DNA from: a bacterium
Lineage (GTDB): Bacteria > Patescibacteriota > Gracilibacteria > UBA1369 > PNNO01
DNA: 37,681 nt
Assembly (NCBI GenBank): GCA_021158225.1
Contig: JAGGUZ010000008.1
Coordinates: forward strand, 1 to 37,681
Direction: 5' to 3'
Shown: positions 7,915-37,507 of the stretch, in pieces
Position numbering within the stretch: position 1 is the stretch's first letter
How the letters are laid out: the number at the start of each line of letters is the position of its first letter
Position numbers and translations under genes: made by a program
The notes under the pieces: generated by a model
Told to the model about the DNA's origin: nothing
Database searches by the model: none
Seen by the model: the letters and a program-made list of their open reading frames with translations, nothing else

Positions 7915-8048
7915 CAATTTACTTTATAAGTAGCTTATTTATGAGCTTTCTTTACACGCAACCCACACGCCTGTCGATAAATTCGTAAAGCATTTTCTTG
8001 TTTGTACTTATACATTAAGAAAGCCTGTTCTTTGAAATTTAGTTTTAG

Positions 8049-8148
8049 CAGTACACAGAGACCATTCTGATGACTATGCGGTCAGAAAACCAATACAGAC
8101 ATGCATGATTTTCTGCGCTTCATAGCGTTAGAAAAATCTCTGTGTCTG
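8049..8148 (+). ncRNA. Candidate structured RNA or leader (three-way junction)
   Basis: The closing helix is CAG-t-ACACAGAGA (8049-8061) with TCTCTGTGTCTG (8137-8148): 12 pairs with one bulged T. Inside are two further hairpins: TTCTGAT/GTCAGAA (8065-8071 with 8081-8087) and TTTTCT-g-CGCT/AGCG-tt-AGAAAA (8109-8119 with 8124-8135). An intrinsic terminator starts 15 nt later (8164). No protein frame is visible in 7861-8247. The arrangement of junction, terminator and then an SD-led gene resembles a riboswitch or attenuator, but I match it to no known family and see no convincing promoter. It could instead be a free small RNA. Confidence 0.4.
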
Positions 8149-8163
8149 TTTTCGATATATAGC

Positions 8164-8247: not shown

Positions 8248-9108
8248 ATGCAGAAAACAACATCAGTCACCACGAGACTAAAAAGATGGCACAAGATCGT
8301 GCTTGGAATCCTCGGGGTCGTAGGCATCGTTTTCATCGTCATCCTAGTAATGATGATGATGAAAGATACACGACCCGCAAGAGTTGCAAATACAGCGAGA
8401 GAAACCTCTAAGATGGCAACATCTGCCTCCAAGGCAGCAATGTCAAAAGCCAACAAAGCTATCAAGATGGCAACAACTGCCAACGCAGTGGCAACAACTG
8501 CCTCCGAAGCAGCAACAACTGCCTCCGAAGCAGCAACAACTGCCTCCGAAGCAGCAACAACTGCCAACAAAGCAGCGACAACTGCCAACAAAGCAGCGAC
8601 AACTGCCAACAAAATGGCGACAACTGCCAACGAAGTGGCGACAACTGCCAACAAAATGGCGACAACTGCCAACGAAGTGGCGACAACTGCCAACGAAATG
8701 GCAACGACCAACGCCGAGACCATCTCGGCTCAAAAGAAAGCATTTTGCCGGCACCACATTGACGACACTTTCTGCAAAGACATAAAACCTGAGCAGAAAC
8801 AGAAGCAGAAAAAGATGCCTCGCAAAACAGTGCGACGGCGTCGGCACCGCCGACGCGACACTTGGCCCCGCCGTCAACGAAAACTCACTCATTCTCCAAC
8901 TCCTACCACCACTCAAGTAACCTCTCTCGGGAGACGCATCGGCGTCCTTGAGAAAAAAGTTAAAAAGCACTCCGTGGTGCTCGCACGCCACACTGTACTT
9001 CTCAAGCCCCTCGACAGATTCCAGGACGAGTTGGGTCCGAAGTACAAGGAGCGTGTCCTTGCGCTACTTAGAAGGCTTGCGCCAAAGGTACAAGCTCACT
9101 CAAGGTAA
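8248..9108 (+). CDS. Single-pass membrane protein with Ala/Thr-rich heptad repeats
   Basis: 286 aa, function not recognised. A short basic N-terminus is followed by one strong membrane helix (about 16-38). Residues 75-151 are eleven seven-residue repeats of the form ATTA(N/S)xx, with degenerate copies on both sides; a strict seven-residue period with Ala at positions 1 and 4 suggests a long alpha-helical or coiled-coil stalk. Then come two Cys (FCRHH and FCKD), a very basic patch (about 175-205, Lys/Arg-rich) and a second predicted helix (about 225-283) rich in Leu, Arg and Lys. The gene is clearly GC-richer than its neighbours (about 50 %) and has a strong SD, which suggests foreign origin or unusual expression. 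A stalked membrane-anchored protein that binds acidic polymers is possible but is only inference. Confidence 0.7.
   Translation: MQKTTSVTTRLKRWHKIVLGILGVVGIVFIVILVMMMMKDTRPARVANTARETSKMATSASKAAMSKANKAIKMATTANAVATTASEAATTASEAATTASEAATTANKAATTANKAATTANKMATTANEVATTANKMATTANEVATTANEMATTNAETISAQKKAFCRHHIDDTFCKDIKPEQKQKQKKMPRKTVRRRRHRRRDTWPRRQRKLTHSPTPTTTQVTSLGRRIGVLEKKVKKHSVVLARHTVLLKPLDRFQDELGPKYKERVLALLRRLAPKVQAHSR
8470..8700 (+). repeat. 21-bp tandem repeat, 11 copies
   Basis: Eleven in-frame units of the form GCAACAACTGCC followed by three variable codons (AACGCAGTG, TCCGAAGCA, AACAAAGCA, AACAAAATG, AACGAAGTG, AACGAAATG). Runs of adjacent identical units (three TCCGAAGCA, two AACAAAGCA, alternating AACAAAATG/AACGAAGTG) indicate recent expansion, so copy number probably varies between strains. 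Confidence 0.95.
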
Positions 9109-9138
9109 AAAATCATCGAAGACAGACCATCCAATTAG

Positions 9139-35234: not shown

Positions 35235-35244
35235 TAAAAAAAGA

Positions 35245-35259
35245 TGAAAACTCGCTTTG
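35245..35259 (+). repeat. Left copy of a 15-bp inverted repeat bracketing the GC-rich island
   Basis: TGAAAACTCGCTTTG, the exact reverse complement of 36241-36255. No direct duplication of flanking bases is visible. Confidence 0.85.
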
Positions 35260-35276
35260 AAGAAAATGAAAAGAGT

Positions 35277-35324
35277 GGCAGGTAAACCACGAACTCTTCT
35301 TAAAGGAGCCGAGGATTACCTGCC
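35277..35324. repeat. Stem-loop 3 of the 3' hairpin string
   Basis: GGCAGGTAA (35277-35285) and TTACCTGCC (35316-35324) form a perfect 9-bp stem with a 30-nt loop; an inner CTCTT/AGGAG helix is possible. On the minus strand it is followed by ACTCTTTTC. Confidence 0.75.
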
Positions 35325-35337
35325 GAAGGAAGGAAAA

Positions 35338-35390
35338 GTGGTGGCCGACCATTGAAGTTCAGACAAAATAACATCAAGATCGACCACCAC
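35338..35390. repeat. Stem-loop 2 of the 3' hairpin string
   Basis: GTGGTGG-c-CGA (35338-35348) pairs with TCG-a-CCACCAC (35380-35390), 10 pairs with one mismatch. On the minus strand TTTTCCTTCC follows. Confidence 0.75.
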
Positions 35391-35408
35391 GGGAGGGGAA
35401 AGAAAAAA

Positions 35409-35470
35409 GGAAGGCGACCCCCCATGAAACAAGCAGGAGGATGGAAGCCTAGCTGTAAGGGTCGCCTTCT
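35409..35470 (-). terminator. Stem-loop 1: likely terminator of the GC-rich lipoprotein gene
   Basis: AAGGCGACCC (35411-35420) and GGGTCGCCTT (35459-35468) are a perfect 10-bp inverted repeat, extendable to 12 with one G-T. On the minus strand CCTTTTTTC follows. The 38-nt loop is long for an ordinary terminator. It starts 11 bp after the gene's stop codon. Confidence 0.65.
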
Positions 35471-35480
35471 GGAGAAGGAG

Positions 35481-36107
35481 CTAGAAGGAGGTCTCTCCCC
35501 TTACAACCACGAACACATATTTCGCGTGTCCGTGGTTTGACCACTCGTAGTAGGCTGTTTCACCTACAAAGTGGAACAAATCAGAGGGGATATTCCCTTG
35601 GCAACCTCTACTGTAGAGATCGAGTTCCTGTCCGCAAATAAATGCGGACAGGAGAATCTCTAAGTCCGCCGCCTCACCCTCCGTTCGAGGGAAGAGGTTT
35701 GGCTGCCAACCGGCTGGCAGCATCCACAAGTTGCGGATGAGCATCTCGAAAGCCCCAATCTTTTCGGTTGGGACCTCCCAAACCTCGACCAAGTCATCAG
35801 ACTCGATGAGAAGTTGGTCCTCACCGGTGACAATCATAGCCGAGAGACCGCTCGGAAGAGTGGCCTTATGCCCGATCAAATCAGGATCACTGTCCGTTCG
35901 CTCCCGAGAGAGTGCAAAGTCGAAATCTCCGTCCCCCATCTCCACCCAGAGGGCAGTCCTACTCGAGGACAAAGTATCCACCGAGATAGTTCCGCTTTTG
36001 ATGTCATTGTTCCCGGCGTCCCCGCCAAGATGGTCGTTACAGCCTACGATAGCCAGCAACGAAATAACCAAAAAAGTTCGCGAAAAAAGATTGTTTAGAT
36101 GTTTCAT
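35481..36107 (-). CDS. Lipoprotein of unknown function in a GC-rich island
   Basis: 208 aa from the ATG at 36107, chosen because AAGGAGG lies 6 nt upstream; the frame itself runs open to 36224. Signal segment 9-22 ends in the lipobox AIVGC (C23). The mature part is acidic (GDGDFDF, SRERTDSDPD), with no repeat or membrane segment and two further Cys (ICGQ and RGCQG) that could pair. I recognise no family. GC content is about 53 %, well above the neighbouring genes, and codon choice (CTC, GTC, GAG, ACC) differs from theirs. A strong hairpin (AACCACG/CGTGGTT, 35505-35537) lies in its last codons. Its own promoter, long leader and four 3' hairpins make it a self-contained unit. Confidence 0.72.
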   Translation of the reverse strand: MKHLNNLFSRTFLVISLLAIVGCNDHLGGDAGNNDIKSGTISVDTLSSSRTALWVEMGDGDFDFALSRERTDSDPDLIGHKATLPSGLSAMIVTGEDQLLIESDDLVEVWEVPTEKIGAFEMLIRNLWMLPAGWQPNLFPRTEGEAADLEILLSAFICGQELDLYSRGCQGNIPSDLFHFVGETAYYEWSNHGHAKYVFVVVRGETSF

Positions 36108-36113
36108 TGTGTT

Positions 36114-36140
36114 CCTCCTTGGGCGCACTAAAGCGCGCCC
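36114..36140 (-). promoter_or_regulatory. Consensus SD directly below a GC hairpin
   Basis: On the minus strand GGGCGC-gctttagt-GCGCCC (36140-36121) is followed at once by AAGGAGG (36120-36114) and ATG 6 nt later. The hairpin could stabilise the mRNA or shape access to the ribosome site. Confidence 0.7.
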
Positions 36141-36162
36141 TGTTGATATTTTCCCTAAAAAG

Positions 36163-36236
36163 GGTTGATGAACTGTGCCTGCCAACAATCTGTTTTTTAT
36201 AAACAGATTGTTGTAAACAAACAACGTCCATCAACC
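36163..36236. repeat. Nested inverted repeat in the lipoprotein leader
   Basis: Outer arms GGTTGATG (36163-36170) and CATCAACC (36229-36236); inner arms CAACAATCTGTTT (36183-36195) and AAACAGATTGTTG (36201-36213), a perfect 13-bp stem with a 5-nt loop. It could be an RNA stem, a cruciform or a regulator site. A second small hairpin CCCT/AGGG is at 36153-36164. Confidence 0.85.
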
Positions 36237-36240
36237 TGTA

Positions 36241-36255
36241 CAAAGCGAGTTTTCA
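36241..36255 (-). repeat. Right copy of the 15-bp inverted repeat
   Basis: CAAAGCGAGTTTTCA, the exact reverse complement of 35245-35259, 1011 bp end to end. In the minus-strand transcript the two copies would lie in the 5' leader and 3' tail and could pair. Confidence 0.85.
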
Positions 36256-36363
36256 ATGATCAATCCTTACCGCTTTCACGTAGGAGCTTTTTAAATATTT
36301 ATAATTTTGCACATAGGCACAAAACCTATAAACAACTCCAGCAAGAGAGTAAGCAAGGAGAGT

Positions 36364-36392
36364 ATTGTACAACTCTTCTTAATATTTGTCAA
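36364..36392 (-). promoter_or_regulatory. Strong promoter of the GC-rich lipoprotein gene
   Basis: On the minus strand TTGACA (36392-36387, perfect), a 17-bp spacer and TACAAT (36369-36364). Start of transcription near 36357 gives a leader of about 250 nt. Confidence 0.75.
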
Positions 36393-36460: not shown

Positions 36461-37507
36461 TTAATCACAAACACAATCCAAACGTCCATCTTCATCTGAA
36501 TCATAAGCAGCACAAGTTCCATTAGCATTGCAAGGAGGATACCCCGCATCACAATGTTCACCAGCCGATGCGCCCGGCAAACATTCGTTAATATATATAG
36601 TACAAGCTGAATTACCATTGCAATCAGGATCTACACACCCTACATAACCATTTCCATTGTTATCGTAACCATCAGTACAATGTTCTGTTATATAACAAGT
36701 CCCCAACCCAGGACCCGCCTGCCCATCACAATCCGGATCAACACAATCAGCCTTTCCATCTCCATCATCATCAATTCCGTTATTACAAATCTCTGGTGGG
36801 GTACAAGCTGGATTATTTGTACAATCCGAATCATTACAGTCAACTAACTCATCTCCATCATTGTCCGCCCCATCATCACAAGTCGTTTCCGGCTGTTCAC
36901 ACATTTCCGCATTAGGACCAATATGTCCTACACAATCAAGATCAGCACAATCGGCCTTTCCATTTCCATTATCATCAATTCCGTTATTACAAATTTCAGT
37001 GGGGGTACAAACCGGATTATTTGTACAATCCGAATCATTACAGTCAACTAACCCATCTCCATCATTGTCCGCTCCATCATCACAAGTCGTTTCCGGCTGT
37101 TCACACATTTCCGCGTTAGGACCAATATGTCCTACACAATCGGGATCAGCACAATCTTTTTTTCCATCATTATTATCATCAATTCCGTTATTACAAATTT
37201 CAGTTGGAACTTCAGCATCACCATCCGTATCACTATCAATATCTCCATCAGATACACCTCCATCTACATCAGAATCGTTCGTACCACCATCAACTCCACC
37301 ATCCTCTAAATATGGATACGTAGTCCCCGATGGATCAAATACACATCCTTGCATAGCAGTAGCACCAGCCATAGAAGCAGTTGCTGTCATAATTGCCATA
37401 AGCGTATTATTGAACCATCTTCTTAGCCTTGAGATACGGTGAATGCTTGGTTGAAATTCCTGATTTTCAACCTGATTCTGATTGTAAATATTATTTTCTA
37501 TAGACAT
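36461..37507 (-). CDS. MopE-like lipoprotein with Cys/Asp-rich metal-binding repeats
   Basis: 348 aa. A 34-residue basic N-terminus precedes a hydrophobic segment (35-54) ending AMQGC (C55), a plausible lipoprotein or signal cleavage site. An Asp/Gly-rich stretch (65-98) leads to three 67-68-residue repeats (101-168, 169-236, 237-303). Each holds two MopE-type motifs of the form EICNNGIDDDGDGKADC and TTCDDGADNDGDGLVDC, known from the copper-binding MopE/putative metal-binding family and found in many surface proteins. The Asp ladder suggests calcium. A C-terminal Cys-rich module (304-348, NECL...YDSDEDGRLDCVCD) is shared with the neighbouring partial gene. No SD. Confidence 0.85.
   Translation of the reverse strand: MSIENNIYNQNQVENQEFQPSIHRISRLRRWFNNTLMAIMTATASMAGATAMQGCVFDPSGTTYPYLEDGGVDGGTNDSDVDGGVSDGDIDSDTDGDAEVPTEICNNGIDDNNDGKKDCADPDCVGHIGPNAEMCEQPETTCDDGADNDGDGLVDCNDSDCTNNPVCTPTEICNNGIDDNGNGKADCADLDCVGHIGPNAEMCEQPETTCDDGADNDGDELVDCNDSDCTNNPACTPPEICNNGIDDDGDGKADCVDPDCDGQAGPGLGTCYITEHCTDGYDNNGNGYVGCVDPDCNGNSACTIYINECLPGASAGEHCDAGYPPCNANGTCAAYDSDEDGRLDCVCD
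36599..37207 (-). repeat. 204-bp tandem repeat inside the MopE-like gene
   Basis: Units 37207-37004 and 37003-36800 are nearly identical in DNA; 36799-36599 is a diverged third unit (201 bp). The near-identity of the first two points to a recent duplication. Confidence 0.9.

Follow-up and report, generated by a model that had tools for sequence, protein, structure and literature searches.

The window, that is, the whole stretch of 37,681 nucleotides that was analysed, carries on its minus strand a GC-rich gene for a lipoprotein of 208 amino acids (35481-36107), an open reading frame conserved as a protein and starting with a lipoprotein signal with C23. Its GC content is 0.517 and its GC3 is 0.60, whereas the genome has a mean GC3 of 0.284 (sd 0.059; 554 ORFs, 629 kb), which bears out the original prediction that composition and codon use differ here from the surroundings. 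The family has no match in Pfam, NCBIfam, or PDB, and no Rfam match was found at the locus; an AlphaFold model reached a pLDDT of only 38 and was left unused. Cys/Asp-rich repeat proteins with metal-binding motifs are clustered beside the lipoprotein in orthologous loci (36461-37507 in the window, together with neighbours in L062-L065). An exact 15-nt inverted repeat brackets the lipoprotein gene. TGAAAACTCGCTTTG lies at 35245-35259 on the plus strand and its exact reverse complement at 36241-36255, confirming the predicted span of 1011 bp from outer end to outer end.

Read in the direction of the gene, the locus starts with a sigma-70-like promoter, TTGACA-17-TACAAT (36364-36392, minus strand), and promoters of the same type were read directly at the same place in three related genomes (G002, G003, and G005). 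The promoter in the window has its end at 36364, with about 110 nt between it and the 5′ arm of the repeat (36241-36255); since it lies upstream of both arms, a transcript starting from it would include both. Overlapping the 5′ arm is a boxA-like element, TGATCATTGAAAAC (36249-36262), recognized by a matrix of rRNA leaders and by its match to the 23S leader. Folding places a large predicted leader hairpin (36163-36236) after the 5′ arm and ahead of the ribosome binding site, as it does in all five orthologs. A smaller GC-rich hairpin (36121-36140), seen in the sequence and by folding, stands directly 5′ of the Shine-Dalgarno sequence (36114-36120) in four of the five species (the window genome, G002, G003, and G005), and none was seen in G004. 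The coding sequence is followed by three predicted trailer hairpins (35410-35469, 35338-35390, and 35277-35324) with pyrimidine-rich linkers, the 3′ arm (35245-35259), and a T-rich stretch on the minus strand (T7 at 35236-35242). The orthologs likewise have two or three long hairpins after the ORF, with pyrimidine-rich linkers, and then the 3′ arm and a T-rich stretch. The ORF itself is predicted to fold more stably than its synonymous codon shuffles, with z-scores over the five species of −6.1 (window genome), −2.9, −2.4, −0.8, and −4.1; 24 control ORFs, one of them the GC-rich L105 gene, gave a mean z of −0.8 (sd 1.1).

The repeat is unique. No third copy of the 15-mer was found in the window with up to two mismatches or in the 990-kb genome with up to one, and with two mismatches the whole genome holds only two scattered, unrelated sites. 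At this composition about 0.13 exact inverted pairs of at least 15 nt with a spacing of 100-2000 nt are expected per window, so that by length alone, as an isolated pair, the match is moderately unlikely, not extreme. As for the expectation that such a match between the two flanks would hardly arise by chance, it holds: none of 2000 Markov shuffles of the region from 300 nt upstream to 300 nt downstream of the gene gave 15 nt. Among the exact inverted pairs of at least 14 nt in a 324-kb sample, the lipoprotein pair alone brackets a whole gene, all others overlapping ORFs. We also came across the 15-mer in 46 stretches of viral contigs, each with a single match and none with a pair; because these matches are never paired, they were taken as chance. 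No relatives of the lipoprotein were found in the viral contigs.

Of seven genomes of the family searched at the protein level, five have the lipoprotein: the window genome (G000), G002 (record PNNO01000005.1, bacterium isolate SW.3.65), G003, G004, and G005. The orthologs share 25-65% identity with the window protein, and the five belong to one family and four genera; in 353 genomes of the class, no homolog was found outside the family. In G003, G004, and G005 the gene sits as in the window, convergent with a pfkB kinase gene and downstream of the metal-binding-motif repeat genes. The upstream neighbour in G002 is also the same, and there the contig ends downstream. In all five orthologs the same two positions of the locus hold inverted repeats, 14-17 nt long, yet their sequence differs: the exact arms are TGAAAACTCGCTTTG in G000 (15 nt), GAAAACTCGCTTTG in G002 (14), TGAAAACTCGCTTATGT in G003 (17), AAAATCGCTTATATTT in G004 (16), and GAAAACCCGCTTGT in G005 (14). 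The distance from the 5′ arm to the start codon is always 85-198 nt, and that from the stop codon to the 3′ arm 150-223 nt. Other, single occurrences of the core in genomes of the family have no partner.

Within a species the arms are exactly complementary over 14-17 nt, whereas arms from diverged species fit over only 5-8 nt (12-15 nt among G000, G002, and G003, which are mutually close). In the named structure of 17 pairs, six pairs differ at both positions and no pair at a single position, giving a covariation score, based on five sequences, of 0.306 against 0.000-0.056 for slid versions. There are no G-U intermediates among the altered pairs, and the changing bases reach past the common core and differ between lineages. 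Folding of the five transcripts with ViennaRNA pairs the arms across about 900 nt every time, with mean pair probabilities of 0.98, 0.996, 0.98, 0.94, and 0.997; intermolecular duplex energies of whole leaders versus trailers gave no discrimination. From repeat, covariation, and folding together, the inverted repeat is very probably a leader-trailer helix that closes one mRNA. That it is a conserved base-pairing signal tying both mRNA ends, and not the end of a mobile element, is well supported. Thus, among the two readings first offered for the repeat, pairing of the two mRNA ends gained strong support from the compensatory changes and the folding, and the repeat proved to be conserved at this locus in related species, while the mobile cassette, to which we return below, found no support.

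The 5′ arm seems to do more than pair. In G004 it retains TTGAAAA where its 3′ arm has stopped pairing, which points to an extra constraint, as a boxA would give. The lipoprotein element is identical to the organism's own 23S leader boxA, GTTCATTGAAA, at 10 of 11 positions, with one mismatch. The rRNA leaders themselves show how boxA and helix can be joined: the own 16S leader TGTCCTTTAACATTTAGGG continues directly into a leader-trailer helix (leader TGTCCTTTAACATTTAGGGTGTAATAGAGAAACC, trailer GGTTCTCTATTACACCCTGAATGTTA) that overlaps the 3′ half of boxA, and after TGTTCATTGAAAATTAGG in the own 23S leader comes the strand TTCACAAGT..AATTTGTAATTACAAATTGCTAGTCATC, which pairs with GATGACTAGCAATTTGT..AACTTGTGAA. 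The 23S leaders of the relatives read CGCTCATTGAAAATCAGG (G005) and CGATCATTGATAAATCGG (G004), and the lipoprotein 5′ arms TGATCATTGAAAACTCG (G000 and G002), CGTTCATTGAAAACTCG (G003), TGATCCTTGAAAAATCG (G004), and CGACCTTTGAAAACCCG (G005). In the window genome about 9 kb separate the 16S from the 23S rRNA gene (L123 and L126, contig C22), and each has a promoter-like site, boxA, and leader-trailer helix of its own.

A boxA matrix built from six rRNA leaders only, including the 23S leaders of G004 and G005, was used to score 522 gene leaders of the window genome. Rank 1 went to the gene at 8248-9108, rank 3 to the L105:9895 gene, and rank 13 to the lipoprotein, all three GC-rich; the five lipoprotein ortholog leaders would rank between 6 and 19 of 522. 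Compared with the E. coli boxA consensus GYTCTTTAANA, the lipoprotein element has three mismatches and the other two genes have one each. Over 396 kb sampled from G005, the seven high-GC3 genes account for four of the six top boxA leaders among genes with their own leader (boxA score against high GC3, Mann-Whitney p 0.009; 0.03 without the lipoprotein). In G000, the same comparison over all 14 high-GC3 genes was not significant (p 0.16). Given this result, and since G004 and G005 each contributed their 23S leader to the matrix, an association between boxA and GC-rich genes is suggestive, not proven. High scores at L114:12711 and L144:13906 fall within coding DNA and were for that reason taken as chance. 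In the sampled part only S10 was seen, and NusB was not located. Judged by its sequence, the element in the lipoprotein 5′ arm is probably a boxA, though with considerable room for doubt.

A second gene in the window repeats the layout. It is GC-rich (8248-9108, plus strand; GC3 0.52) and encodes 286 amino acids with a membrane anchor and Ala-rich 7-residue repeats (in-frame 21-bp units). The boxA-like site TGTTCTTTGAAATT (8026-8039) lies 222 nt upstream of the start codon and is followed by a long hairpin and then by the 5′ arm GTCTGTTTTCGAT (8144-8156), which can pair, with one G-U pair, with the 3′ arm ATCGAAGACAGAC (9115-9127), six bases past the stop codon. The syntenic ortholog in G001, another genome, has the same boxA core and an exact 13-nt pair, GTCTGTTTTCGAA/TTCGAAAACAGAC. 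Between the two, one pair has changed on both sides and one alternates between G-U and A-U; the predicted pair probabilities reach 0.7 and 0.91. No T follows the 3′ arm of this second gene.

A third family (L105:9895-10593, with orthologs in L152-L156) encodes an exported protein and has a boxA-like leader in six of six genomes (GCTCATTAACA, GCTCATTTACA, GCTCATTCAAA, GATCCTTAACA, GTTCATTAACA, and GCTCATTAAAA). It has a long leader hairpin as well, and a consistent leader-trailer helix was not found in these six genomes. The best boxA-like leader of the G005 sample belongs to L159:18081-18479, where folding offers a candidate helix, seen in one species, between positions −66 to −58 of the leader, directly after the boxA match, and positions 13-21 of the trailer. 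L144:47-748 was considered as a further case, its TTGAAAATTGGCGG looking boxA-like by eye, but was rejected because of a matrix rank of 454 out of 522 and a helix of just 7 bp. At their ends, the window genome's contigs C24 and C14 (L144:1-748 and L117:1-127) overlap inside one GC-rich gene (GC3 0.71), showing that these contigs adjoin.

How might such a transcript be made? Starting about 110 nt upstream, transcription would produce a leader whose 5′ arm bears the boxA-like site. Nus factors, NusB/S10 among them, could bind there and hold the leader at RNA polymerase, as they do for rRNA, while the GC-rich, highly structured body is transcribed. The emerging 3′ arm would then meet the 5′ arm, and the helix would close a 1-kb loop containing the leader hairpin, the Shine-Dalgarno hairpin, the coding sequence, and the trailer hairpins. 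The most likely effect would be a stable or processed mRNA for an exported protein; whether as a stable mRNA with both ends tied, through an RNase III cut, or through termination past the 3′ arm is the least certain part. That both arms are transcribed, that Nus factors bind, that the helix closes during transcription, and what follows from it are steps that we infer. The same parts stand in the same order as in rRNA but around a coding sequence, suggesting the same action. Counting against the mechanism, the trailer hairpins with their T-rich tails precede the 3′ arm, through which transcription would have to continue. On balance, we lean slightly toward this boxA/Nus-guided closing of a leader-trailer helix in the lipoprotein mRNA as a whole.

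The helix could also be real without any Nus involvement. It would then be an ordinary 5′-3′ UTR interaction like that of Staphylococcus aureus icaR, serving translation control or as an RNase III substrate, and the boxA likeness would be a coincidence in an A-rich arm. Complementarity, folding, and covariation are explained equally well in this way, RNase III cleavage of the paired icaR UTRs is already known (PMC3868564), and the lipoprotein boxA match is moderate. However, the 5′ arm is conserved beyond pairing, the rRNA-like motif is also present in the leaders of other GC-rich genes, and the arm, 85-198 nt ahead of the start codon, does not coincide with the Shine-Dalgarno sequence in the way seen for icaR; for these reasons we hold such an interaction to be rather unlikely. 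A further, improbable explanation makes the arms the two halves of an intrinsic terminator (A-tract plus CTCGC in the 5′ arm; GCGAG, then TTTT and the T-rich stretch, in the 3′ arm), with the whole gene as its loop and the RNA ending right after closing. An A-tract opposite a T-tract is indeed typical of terminators, and a T-rich stretch follows the 3′ arm in the orthologs. The trailer hairpins upstream, however, have T-rich tails of their own, the 3′ arm of the second gene lacks a following T, and we know of no terminator with an arm so far away.

Two other explanations place the signal in the DNA. The original prediction proposed a non-autonomous mobile cassette. With terminal inverted repeats it would perhaps be an ancient insertion, and a single gene of foreign-looking composition between inverted repeats does fit that description. 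In members of other families examined, moreover, the pfkB locus has neither the lipoprotein gene nor the repeat. Yet the gene occupies the same locus across genera and keeps its GC bias in every ortholog, no second partnered copy exists in any family genome, and the arms change together, including bases beyond the common core. The flanks show no target duplication and there is no transposase, just as the prediction had said, and a search for empty sites gave none. In the genome and relatives searched, the repeat occurs only here and its flanks are unchanged, the very outcome that the prediction had named as speaking against a cassette. Fixed locus, uniqueness, and covarying arms thus contradict a currently mobile unit, and we regard the cassette as highly improbable. 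Hardly more probable are two inverted protein-binding sites, or a cruciform or recombination function, acting in DNA and not in RNA. Changes without G-U pairs are what a DNA repeat would also give, but a fixed protein site would not need the lineage-specific changes past the common core, both arms fall within the inferred transcript, and the layout matches that of rRNA leader and trailer.

Returning to the boxA/Nus-guided helix, the findings suggest that synthesis and folding of a few protein-coding transcripts here follow the pattern of ribosomal RNA. It is conceivable, though doubtful, that the family has a whole class of GC-rich, unusually structured mRNAs, mostly for exported or membrane proteins, that use the rRNA route (boxA, the Nus factor complex on polymerase, and a closing leader-trailer helix) and so yield long-lived mRNAs that are closed or trimmed. 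At boxA, the Nus complex is viewed chiefly as machinery for rRNA, and the principal task proposed for it, bringing distant RNA ends together, is hard to disentangle from ribosome assembly. An mRNA with a boxA and a covarying leader-trailer helix would offer a simple model for Nus-assisted joining of distant RNA ends. If true, the rRNA layout would be usable for coding RNAs, and GC-rich, structured gene islands in AT-rich small genomes would have a possible cause other than gene transfer.

In Escherichia coli, boxA binds NusB/S10, the complex remains on polymerase and draws the RNA into a loop, and the rRNA is enclosed by leader-trailer helices; Nus and boxA are now considered to serve rRNA chiefly in its folding (PMC5725501, PMC10250234). 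The lipoprotein transcript resembles pre-16S and pre-23S rRNA (PMC10250234) in its boxA-like leader site, its leader and trailer strands, complementary across about 1 kb or more, the compensatory changes, the leader hairpins, and the highly structured body. It differs in that the body is an ORF conserved as a protein, not an rRNA, and in that no boxB or boxC was identified. Its helix has 14-17 continuous bp, whereas that of pre-16S rRNA has 25-40 bp in Enterobacteriaceae and that of the own 16S is longer, too; with more than 17 bp needed for E. coli 30S biogenesis (PMC10250234), it sits at the lower limit of this requirement. A boxA in an mRNA leader is described for suhB and Citrobacter CKO_00699 (PMC5725501), likewise in the 5′ UTR of a protein gene, but near the gene start and with suhB being repressed, whereas here it lies 80-230 nt upstream; for these two genes, we found no description of a leader-trailer helix. 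As in icaR (PMC3868564), the ends of one mRNA pair over the coding sequence, but the icaR UCCCCUG motif pairs with the Shine-Dalgarno region, while the arm here is far upstream, longer, and adjoins boxA. With a MITE or single-gene cassette, the locus shares a gene between inverted repeats, and it differs in its fixed place, its uniqueness, and the covariation of its arms between species. Among the open-licence literature, we found no paper joining boxA with a leader-trailer helix in an mRNA. Each half is already known singly, namely 5′-3′ UTR pairing of an mRNA in icaR (PMC3868564) and boxA in an mRNA leader in suhB (PMC5725501).
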